In this document: positions 1 to 9,620 of the stretch, in pieces
How positions within the stretch are numbered: the first letter of the stretch is position 1
Layout of the letters: every line of letters begins with the position of its first letter
DNA from: a virus
DNA length: 24,820 nucleotides
Strand: one strand, 5' to 3'
IMG/VR virus record: IMGVR_UViG_3300023178_000256
Span: 1 to 24,820 of that record
The notes under the pieces: model-generated
The model's input: the letters and a program-made list of their open reading frames with translations, nothing else
What the model was told of the DNA's origin: nothing
Databases searched by the model: none
Position numbers and translations under genes: made by a program

Positions 1-1047
1 AAGATGAACGAACATATTTCTGACATCGAAAGTAAACAAACTAATATTGACACAGTTGACGAAGACATTAAAGCTCTCTACGAAACAATCAGTGACAAGA
101 AAGATGTAAAAGGCAAATTTGATAAGGCCAACTCTTTAAAACAAGACATGGAAACAACTCGTAGAAACTTTGATAAAGAGTTATCCTTTTACCACGACAA
201 TGATAATTGTCCAACCTGTAAACAAGGAATCGAACATGACTTTAAAGAGAAGGTTGTTAGTGAAAAGAATGACAAATTGCAAGAACTTGAAAATGGTTTG
301 GTTGAAATCACTACAAAGATTACCGATTGCCAAGAAAGACTTGACGCCATTGGTGAAGTTGAAGAGCAAATCCAAAATAAGAATTTTGAAATTTCTGAGA
401 TTAGAGCCGAAATCAAAATGGCTAAAAATGCTCTCGTCTCGTTTAAAACAGAACTTGAGTCGGCGGAACGTGAAGTCGAAGAAGTTGACACATCAAAACT
501 CGAAGCCTTACAAGAAGATCTCAACATCAAGAACTCAAAGGCTGAAGAGCTATTACGTGAACACGAGATTTTAAATGTCGTATCTACAATCCTTAAGGAT
601 GGTGGAATTAAGGCCAGAATTATTAGTCAATATATTCCAGTGATGAATAAACTGATTAATAAGTATCTAGCAGCATTTGATTTATTCGTTGACTTTCAAC
701 TTGATGAAGAGTTCAATGAGGTCATTCGTTCAAGATTTAGAGATAATTTTACATACGCCTCATTCTCAGAAGGTGAGAAACTCAGAATTACATTATCAAT
801 TATGCTTGCCTGGCGTTCAGTTGCCAAACTTCGTAATTCAGTTTCTACAAACCTACTCATACTTGATGAGACACTCGATGGTGCTCTTGATAGTGTAGGT
901 ATTGAAAGTCTAATTGAAACTCTACACGGACTGAATGCTGACGATAATATATTTGTTATCAGTCACAGAGGTGACCAGTTTGCAGAAAAATTTGATGGCA
1001 GCATTACTTTTGACAAGATTAAAAACTTCAGCGAAATTATCGGTTGA
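1..1047 (+). CDS. 46: gp46-like recombination endonuclease subunit (SbcC/Rad50 type), C-terminal part
   Basis: C-terminal part of the ATPase subunit of the gp46-gp47 (Rad50-Mre11 type) complex that resects DNA ends for recombination-dependent replication. The frame is open at base 1, so the gene starts outside the window and the ATG at 4 is probably internal. A coiled coil leads to a zinc-hook CPTC (208-219, residues 69-72 counted from that ATG) and a second coiled coil follows. The ATPase half has an ABC signature FSEGEK (residues 254-259), Walker B LLILDE (D288, E289) and an H-loop SHR. Walker A would lie upstream of the window. The TGA stop lies inside the -35 box of the next promoter. Family assignment is secure; the true length is unknown. 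Confidence 0.93.
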   Translation, partial: KMNEHISDIESKQTNIDTVDEDIKALYETISDKKDVKGKFDKANSLKQDMETTRRNFDKELSFYHDNDNCPTCKQGIEHDFKEKVVSEKNDKLQELENGLVEITTKITDCQERLDAIGEVEEQIQNKNFEISEIRAEIKMAKNALVSFKTELESAEREVEEVDTSKLEALQEDLNIKNSKAEELLREHEILNVVSTILKDGGIKARIISQYIPVMNKLINKYLAAFDLFVDFQLDEEFNEVIRSRFRDNFTYASFSEGEKLRITLSIMLAWRSVAKLRNSVSTNLLILDETLDGALDSVGIESLIETLHGLNADDNIFVISHRGDQFAEKFDGSITFDKIKNFSEIIG

Positions 1048-1072
1048 CATTTATCCTCAGGCGTGTTATAAT
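1044..1072 (+). promoter_or_regulatory. Sigma70-type promoter for gene 43
   Basis: TTGACA at 1044-1049 and TATAAT at 1067-1072 with a 17-bp spacer and an extended -10 (TGTTATAAT). The -35 box overlaps the TGA stop of gene 46 (1045-1047). Predicted start is about 24 bp before the polymerase ATG, so the leader is very short. Confidence 0.85.
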
Positions 1073-1095
1073 ATACACCTACAATATGGAATGAC

Positions 1096-3645
1096 ATGAC
1101 AATGACATCGTTTTACACATCAGTCGAACGCTTCGGCAATAATATCTTACATCGTGGATATAACAATGGGAAAAGATTCTCATATAAAGTTCCGTTCAAA
1201 CCGACACTGTATTTACATACACCAAAATCTGGTGAGGAAGGCTATACTTCCTTAGTGGGTAATTACAAACTTTCACCTCAGCAGTTTGGTGATATGCGCG
1301 AAGCCAAAAACTTTATCGAAGAGTATAAAGGCGTCGGCAATATGAAAATGTTTGGTAGTACAAACTATGTTGCTCAGTTCATTCAAGAAAACTACCCAGA
1401 TAAGATTGCATTCGACATGTCTCAAATCAATGTCGCCTCGTTTGATATTGAGGTTGATATACGTGATGGTTATGCAAACATCGAAGAGGCAGATAAAGAG
1501 ATTACATCAATTGCCTACCACAGTTCACGAAATTCAAAATACACACTCCTTGCGGTCAAAGATTTTGACAAATACGCAACGACTACTGGAATTGACCCAG
1601 AGGACATTGAGTTCGTCAAATTCAGTAGTGAACAACAACTCCTAAGATATTTCGTTGAATTGTGGGCGGCAGATTATCCAGATATTGTGACTGGTTGGAA
1701 CGTTGAATATTTTGACATACAATATCTTGTGACTCGTATTATTCGTATCTGTGGCGAAGACTTGGCAAAAAGACTTTCGCCTTGGAAACATATCAAGAAA
1801 CACTCAAACGAAATCTTCAATAAGGTCCAATCCACATATCGTATCTCTGGTATGACTGTGATTGACTACATGGACGCGTTCAAGAAATTTGGATACAAAT
1901 ATGGTCCACAAGAATCTTATAAACTTGACCATATTGCATATACAGTCCTTGGTAAGAAAAAATTGGACTATTCTGAATATGGAAACCTAACAGCTCTATA
2001 TGACGAAAATCCACAACTCTATCTTGATTATAATCTTCGTGATACTCAGTTGATTTCTGCTCTCGAAGAGGAAACAAGTTTATTACAATTGGTAATGACT
2101 GTCGCTTATGGTGGCGGTGTTGATTATAAAGATGCATTTGGTACTGTGGGTATCTGGGAAACAACCATTTACCGTAGACTATTGCGAGACAAAATTGTTC
2201 CACCTCTTAAAGGTGGTCCCGGCGAAAATTTAGGAGGACTTGTCGGTGGTTATGTTAAAGATCCAGTTCCTGGCATGCACCCTTGGGTTGTTAGTTTTGA
2301 CCTTAACTCCCTATATCCTCACCTGATGCTACAATATAACATGTCACCAGAGACTTGGGTTTCTGACCGACGTGAATATGTGACTCAGGATATGGTACTC
2401 GAAGGTGAGTTTACAAATGATGACCCAGATGTATCGGTATGTGCAAATGGTGTTTGTTTTAGGAATGACGAGGTTGGAATTATTCCAGGTATTATTAATG
2501 AATACTATCGGAATCGTGTTCAGATCAAGAAACAAATGCTTGCGGTCGAACAACAGCTCGAAGTAGAGATTGACGAAACCGAAAAGAAAAGACTCAAACG
2601 TGAAATGAATCAACTTCACAATTCACAAATGTCTATCAAAATTGCGATGAACAGTCTATACGGTGCAACGGCAAACAAATATTTCTTATATTATATTTCG
2701 GAAATGGCCGAGGCGATTACTACATCTGGTCAGTTGTCTATCCGATATGCTCAAAAATCTGTAAATGAATACATGAATAAAATCCTTGGCACAAAGGATA
2801 AGGATTATATCATTTACATTGACACAGATTCCATTTATGTCAACTTTGCCGACCTTATTACTGAAGTGTTTGGTACAACAGACATTGACCGTAAACAAGG
2901 CGAAGAGTTTCTCGATAAGGTTTGCTCTACAAAAATTGAACAAATCATTGAACAAGGCTACGAGGACCTTAAAACCAAGATGGGCGCATATCGAAATGCG
3001 ATGGTGATGAAACGTGAAAAAATTACTGACCGTGCCATCTTTGTTGCGAAAAAGAGATATATCCTGAATGCTCTCAACTCCGAAGGTGTTCATTACGAAA
3101 AACCAAAAATCAGCGTGACTGGTCTTGAAAGTGTTCGTTCCTCTACGCCAGAAATTTGTAGAGAAAAAATGAAACAGGCCTTCGATGTGATTATGAATGG
3201 TACCGAACAAGATGCTCAAACCTTTATTAAAGAGTTCAAGGAAGAGTTCCAATCAGTACCTATCGAGGATATTGCAAAAACATCTGGTACTGACGATATT
3301 GAAAAATACAAAGACAAGGCTACCTTATTCCGAAAAGGTTGTCCTATCCATGTACGTGGTTCAATCTTGTATAACCACCATTTGGTCAAAAACAAACTGA
3401 ACAAGAAATACGAACAAATACAATCTGGTGACAAGGTCAAACTTATCTATCTGAAGGTACCAAATCCTATTCAGCAAAATGTCATCAGTTTTCCTGGCGT
3501 TTTACCTAAGGAACTAGAACTTACTAAATATATTGACTACGACACACAATTTGATAAGGTATTCCTAACACCTATCCAAGGTATCCTAGATGCTCTTGGT
3601 TGGTCGGCAGAAAAGGTAGATACAATCGAGGATTTCTTTACATAA
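1096..3645 (+). CDS. 43: Family B DNA polymerase (T4 gp43-like)
   Basis: Replicative DNA polymerase with 3'-5' proofreading, 849 residues against about 900 for T4. Exonuclease motifs: Exo I FDIE (D117, E119), Exo II NVEYFD (N202, D207), Exo III YNLRD (Y312, D316). Polymerase motifs: A DLNSLYP (D402), B KIAMNSLYG (K515-G523) and C DTDS (D576, D578), followed by a KKRY motif. The C-terminus IEDFFT resembles the sliding-clamp binding tail of gp43. All catalytic residues are present. The start at 1096 has another in-frame ATG two codons later and no clear Shine-Dalgarno, so the exact initiator is uncertain. It has its own promoter, and the next gene begins directly after its TAA. Confidence 0.98.
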   Translation: MTMTSFYTSVERFGNNILHRGYNNGKRFSYKVPFKPTLYLHTPKSGEEGYTSLVGNYKLSPQQFGDMREAKNFIEEYKGVGNMKMFGSTNYVAQFIQENYPDKIAFDMSQINVASFDIEVDIRDGYANIEEADKEITSIAYHSSRNSKYTLLAVKDFDKYATTTGIDPEDIEFVKFSSEQQLLRYFVELWAADYPDIVTGWNVEYFDIQYLVTRIIRICGEDLAKRLSPWKHIKKHSNEIFNKVQSTYRISGMTVIDYMDAFKKFGYKYGPQESYKLDHIAYTVLGKKKLDYSEYGNLTALYDENPQLYLDYNLRDTQLISALEEETSLLQLVMTVAYGGGVDYKDAFGTVGIWETTIYRRLLRDKIVPPLKGGPGENLGGLVGGYVKDPVPGMHPWVVSFDLNSLYPHLMLQYNMSPETWVSDRREYVTQDMVLEGEFTNDDPDVSVCANGVCFRNDEVGIIPGIINEYYRNRVQIKKQMLAVEQQLEVEIDETEKKRLKREMNQLHNSQMSIKIAMNSLYGATANKYFLYYISEMAEAITTSGQLSIRYAQKSVNEYMNKILGTKDKDYIIYIDTDSIYVNFADLITEVFGTTDIDRKQGEEFLDKVCSTKIEQIIEQGYEDLKTKMGAYRNAMVMKREKITDRAIFVAKKRYILNALNSEGVHYEKPKISVTGLESVRSSTPEICREKMKQAFDVIMNGTEQDAQTFIKEFKEEFQSVPIEDIAKTSGTDDIEKYKDKATLFRKGCPIHVRGSILYNHHLVKNKLNKKYEQIQSGDKVKLIYLKVPNPIQQNVISFPGVLPKELELTKYIDYDTQFDKVFLTPIQGILDALGWSAEKVDTIEDFFT

Positions 3646-4377
3646 ATGAATACAATTTTAATTGTCACAAACTTTAGAGCAGCAAGTACTGCATTCACGC
3701 TTTTAAAAGCACAGGAATATAATGTACCATTTAAAGGTGAGATGTTTTCACATGAAAGACCACACAGTCTTGGTGAAGCAAAAGCAACATGGGAATTAAA
3801 CCAATTAGGAATATTCGGTAAGGAGAAAAGAAAAGAATTTGCTTCTGACGAAAAATTTATTGAACAACTTGAGAATGGCGAACCTTGTTGTTTTAAATAT
3901 ATGCCTTATCAACTCCATCAGCAAGATAAAAACATTGATAGGCTGATGAATAGTGTCGATAAAATTTATTATTTGTATCGTAGAGATTTTATGGCTCAAT
4001 GTAAAAGTTGGATTGCGGTAAGACAACAAGGAGACTTTGGTGGTACTGGATTTATTTCTGGTCCTCAAATTAGTAAGGCTCAATTTGAAGAGTCACAAAG
4101 AGAAAAACATTTAGGACTTTTGGGCAAAACTGAGGAACCAGTTAAACATCATATTGTAATAAACCCAGAAGGTCTTTACGCTACTAGATTAGTAAAACAA
4201 CTGACTAATAATTATGAGTACATGGCTGAGCTTTATAAAAAATATCCAGGTGAGCTAGTGTGCATGGAGGATTTCTTTGAAAATCGTCCAGAAGAAAAAT
4301 ATAATAGAATAGTCACATTTGAACAGGACCCAATACTACCAGAAGGGTTCGATGTTGAAAAACTTTTTACGGGTTGA
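3646..4377 (+). CDS. Sulfotransferase-like P-loop protein
   Basis: 243 residues. The N-terminus has a strand-loop TNFRAASTAF (residues 8-17) resembling the 5'-phosphosulfate loop of PAPS-dependent sulfotransferases. YRRDFMAQCKSW (R113, S121) matches their 3'-phosphate motif, an Arg with a Ser eight residues later; the Stf0-type family has a similar R-R-D...Q...S pattern. The likely role is sulfate transfer to a small molecule or glycan; the substrate is unknown. It starts immediately after the polymerase stop codon (TAAATG) with no separate Shine-Dalgarno, so translation is probably coupled to gene 43. A more distant P-loop kinase-like fold is the alternative. Its TGA stop lies within the next -35 box. 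Confidence 0.55.
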   Translation: MNTILIVTNFRAASTAFTLLKAQEYNVPFKGEMFSHERPHSLGEAKATWELNQLGIFGKEKRKEFASDEKFIEQLENGEPCCFKYMPYQLHQQDKNIDRLMNSVDKIYYLYRRDFMAQCKSWIAVRQQGDFGGTGFISGPQISKAQFEESQREKHLGLLGKTEEPVKHHIVINPEGLYATRLVKQLTNNYEYMAELYKKYPGELVCMEDFFENRPEEKYNRIVTFEQDPILPEGFDVEKLFTG

Positions 4378-4402
4378 CAAAGTCAACTTTTTATGTTATA
4401 AT
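4374..4402 (+). promoter_or_regulatory. Sigma70-type promoter
   Basis: TTGACA 4374-4379, 17-bp spacer, extended -10 TGTTATAAT with TATAAT at 4397-4402. The -35 box overlaps the upstream TGA stop (4375-4377). It drives the small beta-barrel gene and glutaredoxin. Confidence 0.85.
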
Positions 4403-4422
4403 ACCCCTTTAGGAGAAAAATT

Positions 4423-4716
4423 ATGAGCGATGGCGATATTAAACTAGTAAGACTATCAACTGGTGAAGAAGTTGTAGGTCGTATTAAAGAAACCGAAGAT
4501 ACCGTAGCAATTGTAGATGGTATTCTTTTGGTCCCAGCTGGAGAAGGTAAAATGGGAATGATTCCTTTTGTACCTTACGGCGATGGAAGTGATGTGGTTG
4601 TGAACAGAAATCATGTAATGTTTATTACAGAACCTGGAGCACAATTAAAAGCACAAATAGTAAAAGTGACATCAGGTTTGGAAATTCCAACAGAAGGCCT
4701 GAGTCTTATTAAATAG
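4423..4716 (+). CDS. Small LSm-like beta-barrel protein, function unknown
   Basis: 97 residues, rich in beta-type segments. The opening KLVRLSTGEEVVGRI (residues 7-21) resembles the first strands of Sm/LSm-type barrels, and similar small proteins are common in T4-like marine phages. Sm-like proteins often bind RNA, but nothing here proves that activity. A good Shine-Dalgarno (AGGAG) precedes an AAATTATG start. It is first in a two-gene unit with glutaredoxin, nine bases apart. The fold assignment is inference from sequence pattern; treat the function as unknown. Confidence 0.75.
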   Translation: MSDGDIKLVRLSTGEEVVGRIKETEDTVAIVDGILLVPAGEGKMGMIPFVPYGDGSDVVVNRNHVMFITEPGAQLKAQIVKVTSGLEIPTEGLSLIK

Positions 4717-4725
4717 GACTTTATT

Positions 4726-4950
4726 ATGATAGAAATATATGGAAAGCCAGCGTGTGGTTATTGCACAATGGCTAAAAATTTATGTGAGCAAAAAGGTGTT
4801 GAATACAAATACCTTTCATTAAATGAGGATTATACTGCAAATGAATTCTTTGATAAGTTTCCAGGTGCAAGAACATTTCCTCAAATTACAGTAAATGATA
4901 CCATCGTTGAAGGAGGCTACCAAGGATTGGTAGAACATTTCGAGCAATAG
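4726..4950 (+). CDS. grx: Glutaredoxin
   Basis: A 74-residue dithiol glutaredoxin. The active site is CGYC (C10-C13), the cis-proline motif is TFPQI (P52), and GGY (63-65) is the usual glutathione-side turn. Length is typical of bacterial and phage glutaredoxins. In T4-like phages such proteins usually supply electrons to ribonucleotide reductase for dNTP synthesis; no reductase gene is in this window, so that partner is inferred. It is co-transcribed with the preceding small gene, and a new promoter begins three bases after its TAG. Confidence 0.92.
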   Translation: MIEIYGKPACGYCTMAKNLCEQKGVEYKYLSLNEDYTANEFFDKFPGARTFPQITVNDTIVEGGYQGLVEHFEQ

Positions 4951-4953
4951 GGG

Positions 4954-4982
4954 TTGACAAATGCCCAAAAATATGTTATACT
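4954..4982 (+). promoter_or_regulatory. Sigma70-type promoter for the 5013-8041 unit
   Basis: TTGACA 4954-4959, 17-bp spacer, extended -10 TGTTATACT with TATACT at 4977-4982. It is the only one of the seven similar promoters with a -10 mismatch. It precedes a four-gene run that includes the first glycosyltransferase and the epimerase. Confidence 0.82.
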
Positions 4983-5012
4983 ATACATTAATACTAAATA
5001 CACCGCAATATT

Positions 5013-5603
5013 ATGCAAAACGAAACGACCTATACGGACAATCAGTGGGAAGTATATTACTTCTTCAAGAATAATGTCTTAAATCCATCTTATCATTTAT
5101 GTGATAAAATAACCCAACGTGCTCTAGCTAATGCATTATTTGATGCAGGACGAGAGCCAGTAGAGTTCATCTCAGAAGAGGCACAAAAATTAAAAGATGA
5201 AAAGGGTCACAAATATGTTCCATGCTATGAGCATTATCGAGGCAGGACACAATCAGCAAAAGACATTACCAGAGCATTTTTAACTGGTAAGAGTCAATCA
5301 TTTATAATGAAACTGATTAGGTCTAGAATGAGAGGTCATTATACAACAAGCGAAGAGAATGTCAAATTAAAAAGATTTGACCATCTACCTTGGAGACAGG
5401 CATATGCCGAGGCTGGTATTAAATTAATTCCTTGGGAACCAAAACCAGTTAGAAAATTTGACTATATAATAGAGGGTAAAACATATGAATCAATCTCAGA
5501 GGTTGCAGAAAAATATGGTATTACCACAGAAGGTGTTGTTTACAGGTGTAAATCAGATTCTGAAAGATTTACAGACTGGACAAGAGAAACTATTGATGAA
5601 TAA
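5013..5603 (+). CDS. Uncharacterised protein with NUMOD-like C-terminal DNA-binding motif
   Basis: 196 residues. The last 45 (about 149-190) read as a NUMOD-type module: a short beta hairpin ending IEGKTYESISEVAEKYGI, then a second helix and a CKSDSERFTDW ending. NUMODs are small helix-turn-helix DNA-binding modules often attached to homing endonucleases. The first 140 residues are basic and helical, with a CYEHYRGRT stretch (71-79), but I cannot make out a complete HNH or GIY-YIG nuclease. It could be a degenerate or unusual homing-type nuclease, or a DNA-binding regulator. The start uses an AATATTATG context without a clear Shine-Dalgarno. Confidence 0.7.
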   Translation: MQNETTYTDNQWEVYYFFKNNVLNPSYHLCDKITQRALANALFDAGREPVEFISEEAQKLKDEKGHKYVPCYEHYRGRTQSAKDITRAFLTGKSQSFIMKLIRSRMRGHYTTSEENVKLKRFDHLPWRQAYAEAGIKLIPWEPKPVRKFDYIIEGKTYESISEVAEKYGITTEGVVYRCKSDSERFTDWTRETIDE

Positions 5604-5635: not shown

Positions 5636-5959
5636 ATGAGTAATAAAAATTTAAAAGACTATACAAAAGACACGGCCGCTGAATACGAGGATTTGGTTGG
5701 ATATGTTTCTGATGATAATATTACAGATACATTGGATACTTTCCTCGGCGAAGAGAAGGCTGACTATAAACCAGAGGTTGCAAGGAAAAAAGTTGACCCA
5801 GAATTTCCAGAACCTTGGCAGACACTTTTTGTAAACTTTGAGAGCGAACAAGATTATATTGATTTTATGTTGGCGATTGACGAAAAGCCTATGCCTAAAT
5901 TAAAAGATGTTGTCTACAAGGCTGGACGACAAGAAAATGGAATTTTGGATTTATTATAA
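5636..5959 (+). CDS. Small acidic protein sharing a motif with the next glycosyltransferase
   Basis: 107 residues of unknown function. The N-terminal half is acidic and probably flexible. Residues 61-94 hold the pattern W-x-x-hydrophobic-F-V-x-F-E-S-E-x-D-x-x-x-F followed by a VVY strand. The same pattern (VKFKSEEDRKHF, then VVYYP) occurs in residues 38-71 of the protein encoded next. I have the impression that this motif recurs in other phage DNA-modification and ParB-like proteins. Shine-Dalgarno GAGG precedes AAATTATG. Its TAA shares one base with the next ATG (TAATG), so translation is coupled. Confidence 0.75.
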   Translation: MSNKNLKDYTKDTAAEYEDLVGYVSDDNITDTLDTFLGEEKADYKPEVARKKVDPEFPEPWQTLFVNFESEQDYIDFMLAIDEKPMPKLKDVVYKAGRQENGILDLL

Positions 5960-7188
5960 TGTATACACCAGTTCACACACAAGAAGAATTACAAAAGGAA
6001 TGGCGTAATCAGTATGTCCAATGGTATGCCGCTGGTATGCCAACCTTTAGAGCAAAGAAAAAAGATGTCTTTAAACAAATCGCTGTCAAGTTCAAATCAG
6101 AAGAAGACAGAAAACATTTCAGCGATAAACTGGATTATAATTTGACAAATAAAACAAATGTGGTTTATTATCCTGCTAGAGGCAGGGAAGAGAACATGAC
6201 CAACAGATATGTTGAGACTGATACTGACCACTTTCAACCAAGATATCCTATCTATATTATTAGTAAGGGACGATGGGATACAAGACACACCGCAAGGACA
6301 TTGGAAAAAATGGGTGTGCCATATTACATTGCAGTCGAACCACAGGAATACGACAAATATGTTGAGGCGACTCCTCCAGGCTTGGGTACTGTATTAAAAC
6401 TTCCTTTCAGTAATCATGGTAAAGGTTCTGGTCCTGCAAGAAATTGGTGCTGGGAACATTCACAGGCGAATGGTCATGCTAGACACTGGCTGATGGACGA
6501 TAACATTGATGGGTTTGTCAGATTAAATCATAACAAACGATACCGTGTAGAAAATGGTTCTGGTATTTTTAGGGCGACTGAGGATTTTGTTGACAGATAT
6601 GAAAATGTGGCTCTCGCCTCATTCCAATACAAATTCTTTGTGGTTGACCCATGCCCATATCAGCCATTTATACTAAATACAAGAATGATGTCCTGTATTT
6701 TAATTGATAATAATTGTCCGCACAAATGGCGTGGCAAGTTTAATGAAGATGTAGATTTGAGTATCCGTGTCCTTAAGGAAGGATTATGTACAATGCTAAT
6801 ATACGCATTTGTTCAAGGTAAACTCAGAACGGGAACAGTAAAAGGTGGAAACACAACTGAAGTGTATGAGGATTATAATGTTGATTCTGAAAATGACCCA
6901 GCATATAACAAATCAAAAATGTTAAAAGAAATGCACCCAGACTGTGTGACTCTCGTTGAGAGATATGGAAGAGTACATCACCATGTTGACCTCAACGCCA
7001 TCGTAAATAAGCATGGATACCCTGCTAGACAAAATCCACTTATATTGAAAAAAGATGTACCAATAGTGAATAAAGTAGATAATTACGGAATGCAATTAAT
7101 GCGAAATTGGAATACTGACGAACAATTCCCAGATCCGGATTTCGAAGCAAATATATTTCCGGAAGGGAGAACATCAATACATGGCTAA
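5959..7188 (+). CDS. TET-associated-type glycosyltransferase (TAGT-like), putative DNA-base glycosyltransferase
   Basis: 409 residues. After the small shared motif (38-71) comes a GT-A-type glycosyltransferase domain from about residue 95: YPIYIISKGRWDTRHTAR, then GPARNWCWEHS, then the metal/nucleotide-sugar site LMDDNIDGF (D180, D181). This arrangement is that of the TET-associated glycosyltransferases, which in phages modify hydroxymethylated pyrimidines in DNA. No TET/JBP oxygenase or dCMP hydroxymethylase lies in this window, so the acceptor (DNA base or surface glycan) is unproven. The gene is coupled at both ends: TAATG upstream, and an 8-base overlap with the epimerase downstream. Family call is moderately strong; the substrate is inference. 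Confidence 0.72.
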   Translation: MYTPVHTQEELQKEWRNQYVQWYAAGMPTFRAKKKDVFKQIAVKFKSEEDRKHFSDKLDYNLTNKTNVVYYPARGREENMTNRYVETDTDHFQPRYPIYIISKGRWDTRHTARTLEKMGVPYYIAVEPQEYDKYVEATPPGLGTVLKLPFSNHGKGSGPARNWCWEHSQANGHARHWLMDDNIDGFVRLNHNKRYRVENGSGIFRATEDFVDRYENVALASFQYKFFVVDPCPYQPFILNTRMMSCILIDNNCPHKWRGKFNEDVDLSIRVLKEGLCTMLIYAFVQGKLRTGTVKGGNTTEVYEDYNVDSENDPAYNKSKMLKEMHPDCVTLVERYGRVHHHVDLNAIVNKHGYPARQNPLILKKDVPIVNKVDNYGMQLMRNWNTDEQFPDPDFEANIFPEGRTSIHG

Positions 7189-8729: not shown

Positions 8730-9620
8730 ATGCAACAAGCAAATATTAATGCAATCAAAACACCTAGGCAGAGGGTGAACATGAAAACTACTCAAACACT
8801 TAAACTCGGTATTATTGGCCGAGGTTTTGTAGGCGGAGCAGTATCCACTGGATTCGATACTAAAAATGTAGAACAATATATTGTAGACCCAGTACATTCA
8901 AAATTAACTTTTGCAGAGCTTATAGACTCAAACCCAGAAGTTATTTTTATTTGTTTACCTACACCAACAAGAACAAAGGCTTCGGTTGAAGGTCCTGTAG
9001 GTAGTGTAAACGCAGACTTAATTAAAACTACATTAAGTAATCTTGAAAAAGAACAATATGATGGTATTGTGGTCATTAAGAGCACAGTCGCACCTTCAGT
9101 GTTAGAATCATTTACAAATATTTTTACACAACTTAATATTGTTTACAATCCTGAATTTTTAACAGAAGCAAATGCAAATGATGATTTCGTAAATCCACCT
9201 TTCCAAATCTTTGGTGGTGATTGGGATATGTGTACAAAAGTAGAACAAATGTATACTCAATACAGTGATGTAAAACCTGTACCAACATTCAAACTTGACA
9301 TTAAGGCAGCAAGTTTCTTAAAATATACTATTAACAGCTGGTTGGCTACAAAGGTAGTATTTTTTAATGAACTAAGAGAACTTTATGCCGAATATGACAT
9401 GTCAACTTCCTGGTCAGAATTTATTGGTGTGTTGGCACACGAACCTCGTGTCGGTCCATCTCACATGAATGTTCCAGGACCTGATGGTAGATTTGGTTTC
9501 GGTGGCAATTGTTTCCCAAAAGACACAAAAGCATTTGTTGAAGAATCAAGAGATTATTCAATGCTTCAACTTTTAGAACAAGCGATTCAGCTTAATAATG
9601 ATATGCGTATTGACAAATAA
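8730..9620 (+). CDS. Short nucleotide-sugar dehydrogenase (UDP-glucose/GDP-mannose dehydrogenase family)
   Basis: 296 residues from the ATG at 8730, which has a strong GGAG. The ATG at 8781, with GAGGG before it, would give the more usual family start KLGIIGRGFVGG and cannot be excluded. Family motifs: NAD site GRGFVGG, KSTVAP, NPEFLTEANANDD, and the catalytic-cysteine motif GGNCFPKD (C261). Full-length enzymes have roughly 390-450 residues. This protein stops soon after the central helical domain and lacks the C-terminal nucleotide-sugar binding domain. It may act as a compact dehydrogenase on an unknown NDP-sugar. Catalytic residues look intact, so decay is not obvious. It probably belongs with the nearby sugar genes. 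Confidence 0.87.
   Translation: MQQANINAIKTPRQRVNMKTTQTLKLGIIGRGFVGGAVSTGFDTKNVEQYIVDPVHSKLTFAELIDSNPEVIFICLPTPTRTKASVEGPVGSVNADLIKTTLSNLEKEQYDGIVVIKSTVAPSVLESFTNIFTQLNIVYNPEFLTEANANDDFVNPPFQIFGGDWDMCTKVEQMYTQYSDVKPVPTFKLDIKAASFLKYTINSWLATKVVFFNELRELYAEYDMSTSWSEFIGVLAHEPRVGPSHMNVPGPDGRFGFGGNCFPKDTKAFVEESRDYSMLQLLEQAIQLNNDMRIDK

Follow-up and report, generated by a model that had tools for sequence, protein, structure and literature searches.

The gene at positions 3646–4377 of the analysed phage DNA is proposed to encode a PAPS sulfotransferase, at a probability of about 0.8, and the encoded enzyme is very likely Stf0/NodH-like, yet lies outside the Stf0 Pfam family. The DNA analysed (the window) comprises all 24,820 nucleotides of positions 1 to 24,820 of IMG/VR record IMGVR_UViG_3300023178_000256, and the phage carrying the gene is marine. 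A sequence-only reading had assigned the product to the sulfotransferases, and that identity is very likely because of invariant residues in register with those of known sulfotransferases, the missing Walker A motif, the position of Stf0 as best fold match in the PDB to a confident structural model, and the ranking of profile comparisons; the proposed match to a curated profile failed. The two genes discussed throughout are the following:

1096–3645, plus strand: DNA polymerase, the upstream partner in a predicted transcription unit

3646–4377, plus strand: sulfotransferase-like gene (243 aa)

The ORF at 3646–4377 is genuine, and its ATG was confirmed to lie immediately 3' of the TAA that ends ORF 1096–3645 (0-nt gap), as the sequence-only reading had stated. 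The upstream ORF encodes a DNA polymerase, with a top identity of 45.3% to annotated phage DNA polymerases in tblastn. This tight junction is kept across the family, as all eight junctions read took the form TAA-ATG, TAATG or ATGA. Furthermore, dN/dS was 0.09–0.37 in seven of eight member pairs, while the eighth (L026/L024), with 0 synonymous and 5 non-synonymous differences, offered too few for use; by this measure of the coding sequences, the ORF is under purifying selection. The gene had also been described as fused in expression to the polymerase. The ORFs do abut and probably belong to one transcription unit, while fusion at the protein level was rejected given that these are two separate ORFs specifying separate proteins.

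Five IMG/VR contigs, each from a different metagenome, encode the window protein at 100% identity over its full length. Diverged members of the family were obtained from the ORFs of loci collected with the polymerase as query, of which 80 were kept from 504 relatives. The gene was located directly behind the polymerase in 20 of these 80 loci and was at least partly present in 22, with fewer than 400 bases available downstream of the polymerase in five. Two profile-driven scans (the second keeping 80 of 96) extended the collection to at least 106 loci, several of which share contigs, and to at least 44 distinct full-length IMG/VR proteins (distinctness being judged on the last 150 residues). 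The alignment used below (A3) contains 34 of these 44, near-copies being omitted, as were L072 (60 aa, truncated where the contig stops) and the fragments L131 and L132 from the alignments generally; members other than the window protein share 35–57% identity with it. Among bacterial and archaeal genomes, 32 stretches fitted a search pattern and none coded for a relative. Where larger records were searched (n = 16, some of them fragments), seven held one copy of the gene and nine held none. The family is new and without annotation, and occurs in phages whose polymerase is T4-like (Kyanoviridae-related).

Relatives occupy six genomic slots: (i) behind the polymerase, (ii) behind the small gene downstream of the polymerase, (iii) behind a dCMP-deaminase-like gene, (iv) between DUF6433 and a nucleotidase-like gene, (v) behind a nuclease-like gene and (vi) behind a UvsX-like gene, the deaminase, nuclease and UvsX labels having been assigned by eye. 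On a tree of the 34 members, the slots require five changes in total, which is the minimum possible (19.2 in shuffles); neither the deaminase nor the nucleotidase slot forms a single clade, each requiring two changes.

Both motifs on which the sulfotransferase assignment was originally based are present, TNFRAASTAF as residues 8–17 (3667–3696) and RRDFMAQCKSW as residues 112–122 (3979–4011), and, with several of their residues invariant in the 34-row alignment, they exceed what chance would be expected to yield. Residues N9, R11, S14, T15, L19, K21, P28, E32, F34, G43, K84, P87, D105, L110, Y111, S121, R126, G135, Y190, E208, Y219 and N220 are invariant in all 34 members, with Arg at position 112 in 32 and at position 113 in 30 (another residue in the remaining four). 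The candidate functional elements are:

3667–3690, plus strand: TNFRAAST (residues 8–15), proposed loop for the 5'-phosphosulfate of PAPS; N9, R11, S14 and T15 in 34/34

3736–3747, plus strand: GEMF (residues 31–34), with E32 (34/34) as proposed catalytic base

3895–3897, plus strand: K84 (34/34), in strand 81–85

3961–4011, plus strand: residues 106–122, a strand-turn-helix with R112/R113 and S121, proposed 3'-phosphate motif

According to the available text of PMC11625862, PAPS-dependent sulfotransferases have a strand-loop-helix element whose PAPS loop includes a Lys or Arg, carry a conserved Ser on the 3'-phosphate helix and employ a His or Glu as catalytic base; the PAPS loop of Mt Stf0 carries an alanine and an arginine. 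The available parts of PMC11625862 and PMC4199319 describe the 3'-phosphate site as a strand-turn-helix in which an Arg precedes a conserved Ser by eight residues, as exemplified by Arg130 and Ser138 of mouse estrogen sulfotransferase, which bind the 3'-phosphate at a spacing of eight (PMC4199319). In the model of the window protein, strand 3–7, a loop and helix 12–24 place the invariant R11 in such a loop, while the invariant S121 sits on helix 115–128, preceded by strand 106–111, and the R113–S121 spacing of eight equals that of Arg130–Ser138. E32 is located at R11+21 in all 34 members. The residue 21 positions after the loop Arg is also Glu in all 12 NodH sequences inspected and in PDB NodH 9vki; among 12 Stf0-like sequences it is Glu in five and Ser in seven, for which reason E32 is put forward as a candidate base. 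A motif pattern gave 0 matches in 645 control ORFs, which shows the rarity of the pattern only, since it was derived from the family itself.

These residues also bear on the possibility that the protein descends from a sulfotransferase but no longer transfers sulfate, and instead binds a nucleotide (PAP, PAPS or another), with a role such as that of a regulator or decoy. Activity is beyond the reach of sequence evidence, and Glu is not universal at the Stf0-like base position, both of which would agree with such a role. Conversely, all 34 members retain the residues proposed for the loop, the base and the 3'-phosphate site, and the family is under purifying selection, so an active enzyme fits better and a non-transferring binder is considered unlikely.

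AlphaFold2 models were generated from 11 rows (pLDDT 80.7, pTM 0.81) and from 34 rows (pLDDT 92.8, pTM 0.90). The top PDB match of the 34-row model in VIA-align was Stf0 (1tex; Z 9.7, rmsd 3.8, 169 residues), which also ranked first for the 11-row model (Z 9.6). The next matches, a sulfotransferase (4gox, 8.2) tied with an adenylate kinase (8.1), lay 1.5 below Stf0. Foldseek against the PDB returned 0 matches at E <= 0.001, and its ranking mixed RapZ, GTPases (including a GPN-loop GTPase) and shikimate kinase with SULT1A1 (rank 4) and Stf0 (rank 10); Foldseek alone gives no separation of sulfotransferase from kinase folds for this model.

The fold comparison is thus also where a degenerate or unusual P-loop kinase, of shikimate or adenylate kinase fold and phosphorylating a small molecule, has to be weighed. 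Besides the first Foldseek rows, which include RapZ, the GPN-loop GTPase and shikimate kinase, 34 of the 50 VIA-align rows are not sulfotransferases, being mostly P-loop kinases (highest Z 8.1), while 16 are sulfotransferases. However, the closest VIA-align matches are not the P-loop kinases that had been named as contradicting the assignment (Stf0 9.7 vs 8.1), and most kinase alignments end at about residue 214, whereas most sulfotransferase rows extend to 241–243. The kinase reading is weakened further by the missing Walker A, as GxxxxGK[ST] is present at the loop after strand 1 in 0/34 members, and the sole GxxxxGKT among them (L159, residue 158) is a chance match away from that loop. Additionally, a profile of phage APS-kinase-like proteins (16 sequences) scored 15.7 in hhalign against the family, vs 30.1 for Stf0. 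A kinase is therefore regarded as quite improbable. In a viral-library fold search with the first, poorer model, three uncharacterised viral proteins (BFVD A0A1P8DJK9, A0A6J5LWC6 and A0A6J5LV69) were the top structural matches, at E <= 0.001 (3e-5 to 3e-4), and sixth place went to a sulfotransferase from Synechococcus phage S-SCSM1; on these modelled structures the three are perhaps further phage sulfotransferase families.

For the window protein, nothing credible was matched in Pfam, NCBIfam, PHROGs, PDB sequences or INPHARED phages. The Pfam matches were weak and fell on families that are unrelated or lack a name (lowest E 0.018, TsiV), and those in NCBIfam were weak as well (lowest E 0.048); in PHROGs the lowest E was 0.0067, to phrog_18084 (no function) and in 2/34 members, PDB sequence searches reached best E values of 0.2, 0.55 and 0.15, and tblastn of INPHARED with the window and L112 proteins found none. 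The profile search suggested as a check consequently failed to recover a sulfotransferase, as no such profile of Pfam, NCBIfam or named PHROGs matches any of the 34 members. Specifically, PF09037 (Stf0) and PF13469 (Sulfotransfer_3) each gave 0 matches in the window (E <= 10) and among the 34 members (E <= 1); PF09037 likewise gave none in three rhizobial/Paraburkholderia genomes or in six records from plasmids or phages.

Comparison sets were assembled from NodH and other PF13469 proteins, NodH relatives and Stf0 proteins (a match in 14 of 289 genomes). The Stf0 set consisted of 12 sequences from 23 places, retained when a PAPS-loop-like motif was present, and the NodH set of 39 distinct sequences chosen by MPRTGTHYL. 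In hhalign against the family, Stf0 scored 30.1 (P 0.0017) and NodH 28.4 (P 0.0032), above all 16 control phage families, NodH only narrowly so over Hsp20 (26.0, P 0.0037); the next-best controls were polymerase fragments (23.5 and 23.1, two controls that overlap) and dUTPase (22.9). Three controls (mt221, dut and prx) consisted of the window protein alone, with no homologue. The highest score among 60 column shuffles of Stf0 was 20.0, and Stf0 in reverse scored 14.1, while the small PF13469 set (4 sequences, including S-SCSM1) scored 15.2. The Stf0 match covers family columns 83–136, not the PAPS-loop-like motif used to pick the Stf0 set, and within the aligned stretch K84 and both 3'-phosphate motifs are in register. 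Taken alone, this profile comparison is modest evidence. The points counting against a sulfotransferase are the lack of a curated profile match, the mixed Foldseek ranking, the tie of the second-ranked sulfotransferase with adenylate kinase in VIA-align, the closeness of Hsp20 to NodH, the low score of the PF13469 set, the Ser at Arg+21 in 7/12 Stf0-like sequences and the replacement of R113 in 4/34 members.

Among characterised enzymes, the Stf0 trehalose sulfotransferase (1TEX, PF09037) resembles the family as the top fold match of both models (a shared fold only), in its R-x-G-S-T loop, in an R-x-D-x6-S motif in register and in the highest hhalign score. Unlike Stf0, the family is unmatched by PF09037, shows 13% identity over aligned residues and has a loop without the PRSG proline, and the Stf0-like base position is Glu in 5/12 only. 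NodH-type enzymes (rhizobial NodH; PDB 9vki, 'LPS sulfotransferase NodH') share the Glu at Arg+21 in a [GD]E-hydrophobic-[FL] setting, an RRN-x6-S motif and the second-highest hhalign score, although no significant HMMER match to NodH was obtained among PDB sequences. Sulfotransfer_3 enzymes of phages (S-SCSM1, OM43-phage contigs) are likewise sulfotransferases of marine phages, yet these are matched by PF13469, and the four-sequence set that includes S-SCSM1 scored low against the family. In S-SCSM1 (L174, MK867354) the PF13469 sulfotransferase likewise belongs to the replication region, directly behind a gp46-like gene.

The polymerase and the sulfotransferase-like gene are flanked by these elements:

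1044–1072, plus strand: promoter-like site (perfect TTGACA-17-TATAAT) ahead of the polymerase, whose -35 box contains the stop codon that ends the upstream gene

4371–4389, plus strand: terminator-like hairpin overlapping the 4374 promoter-like site

4374–4402, plus strand: promoter-like site (perfect TTGACA-17-TATAAT), whose -35 box contains the stop codon that ends the sulfotransferase-like gene

Sites of this TTGACA/TATAAT type are probably early promoters. Promoter-like sites overall are not enriched in 900–5100 (19 vs 15.4 expected), where the two 12-of-12 sites alone stand out; an 11-of-12 site lies inside the sulfotransferase-like gene at 4277, and terminator-like hairpins in the region are at chance level (3 found vs 1.8 expected). 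The exact form TTGAC-N18-TATAAT occurs seven times in the window vs 0.02 in shuffles, with one of the seven (7632) intragenic. Among the gene-end sites, the -35 box TTGACA contains the stop TGA at 1044, 4374 and 8038 and lies within the last codons of a gene at 9610 and 10753, while 14518 is just behind a gene. Across the family, 38 of 50 distinct gene tails carry such a site; the other 12 comprise six with TACAAT as second hexamer, five from UvsX-slot genes and one cut by the contig end. Distinct polymerase ends without a sulfotransferase-like gene carry it in 36 of 42 cases. In L011, L012, L038, L112 and L120, the C-terminus ...IDK is encoded by the -35 box of the next promoter (ATT GAC AAA), and the embedded promoter thus shapes the protein end.

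As the gene is preceded by the polymerase and followed by the promoter that starts the next unit, it should be transcribed with the polymerase, and is probably the last gene of a transcription unit bounded by sites 1044 and 4374; this shared expression is a prediction, since it is based on abutting ORFs and promoter positions. A literature search on TTGACA early promoters in cyanophages returned nothing on point.

The sequence-only reading had named a host surface glycan, a signal molecule or the products of nearby sugar genes as possible targets. Sugar genes do lie 1.6–5.2 kb downstream in the window, encoding a TET-associated glycosyltransferase (TAGT), an NAD-dependent epimerase and a member of the UDP-glucose/GDP-mannose dehydrogenase family:

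5959–7188: TAGT (PF20691, E 3.7e-44)

A glycosyltransferase or cytidylyltransferase is also close to some relatives, and a glycan acceptor is weakly favoured because sugar genes are near both the window gene and those relatives. Among 14 related records, TAGT was detected in three (1/8 with the sulfotransferase-like gene, 2/6 without), C5 methylase (PF00145) in 5/8 with and 2/6 without, and APS_kinase matches in 6/8 with and 4/6 without; an association with any of the three was rejected, as the counts give no clear link. An APS-kinase-like gene two genes behind the copy in L161 was considered as a PAPS supply and rejected, as both genes occur in only 4 of 82 loci scanned, these being three contigs of one lineage. 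The ~260-aa protein concerned (L161:4508-5293 and L022:10943-11722; 498 IMG/VR relatives, 80 kept) has a P-loop half resembling APS_kinase (PF01583, E 9e-8 and 4e-8) and a C-terminal WQPWHEGH or WQPWHNGH. The WQPWHEGH motif of the 261-aa form is presumably nucleotidyltransferase-like, and the protein is possibly, as its sequence suggests, a two-domain kinase-nucleotidyltransferase.

The same neighbourhood has to be considered for a sulfotransferase fold acting in replication, in which the family would be translated in step with the DNA polymerase and would sulfate phage DNA, nucleotides or DNA-linked sugars. The TAGT of the window, the C5-cytosine methylase two genes downstream of the copy in L106 (L106:5748-8170 encoding an unassigned 410-aa protein and this methylase) and the position of several slots amid replication and nucleotide genes are in keeping with it. 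However, neither TAGT nor C5 methylase is clearly associated with the gene, and the slots consist of core phage genes, so that the vicinity may be accidental. Such sulfation appears highly improbable; if true, it would represent a new class of DNA hypermodification.

We retain the Stf0/NodH-type reading, in which the product would be a small soluble PAPS-dependent sulfotransferase. Residues 8–15 would hold the 5'-phosphosulfate of PAPS, and Arg11 among them would occupy the position where a catalytic Lys/Arg is usually found. The 3'-phosphate would be held by Arg112/Arg113 and Ser121, and Glu32 would be the likely base activating the acceptor hydroxyl. The gene would be read last in the polymerase unit from a promoter that is predicted to be sigma-70-type and is therefore probably early, and PAPS would presumably be supplied by the host. 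The acceptor may be a saccharide or other small hydroxylated molecule; a glycan is our best guess, most plausibly one of the envelope or capsule or a phage-made sugar, and its sulfation would alter the surface of the infected cell. Considered as a whole, from the PAPS enzyme through the early polymerase unit to the sulfation of a saccharide or small acceptor, this mechanism is held with moderate confidence.

Sulfotransferases are already known in phages: the available text of PMC10580990 reports a case from OM43-phage contigs and states that the role of phage sulfotransferases is still unclear, and that of a glacier-ice study (PMC8290583) places a sulfotransferase among putative phage metabolic genes. 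A literature search drawing mostly on listings and the beginnings of abstracts found no paper on the present family, which spans diverse IMG/VR contigs. As profiles from Pfam, NCBIfam and PHROGs fail to detect the family, it would be overlooked in surveys of phage metabolic genes that rely on them, while the candidate catalytic residues and the predicted transcription unit make the role of phage-driven sulfation testable.
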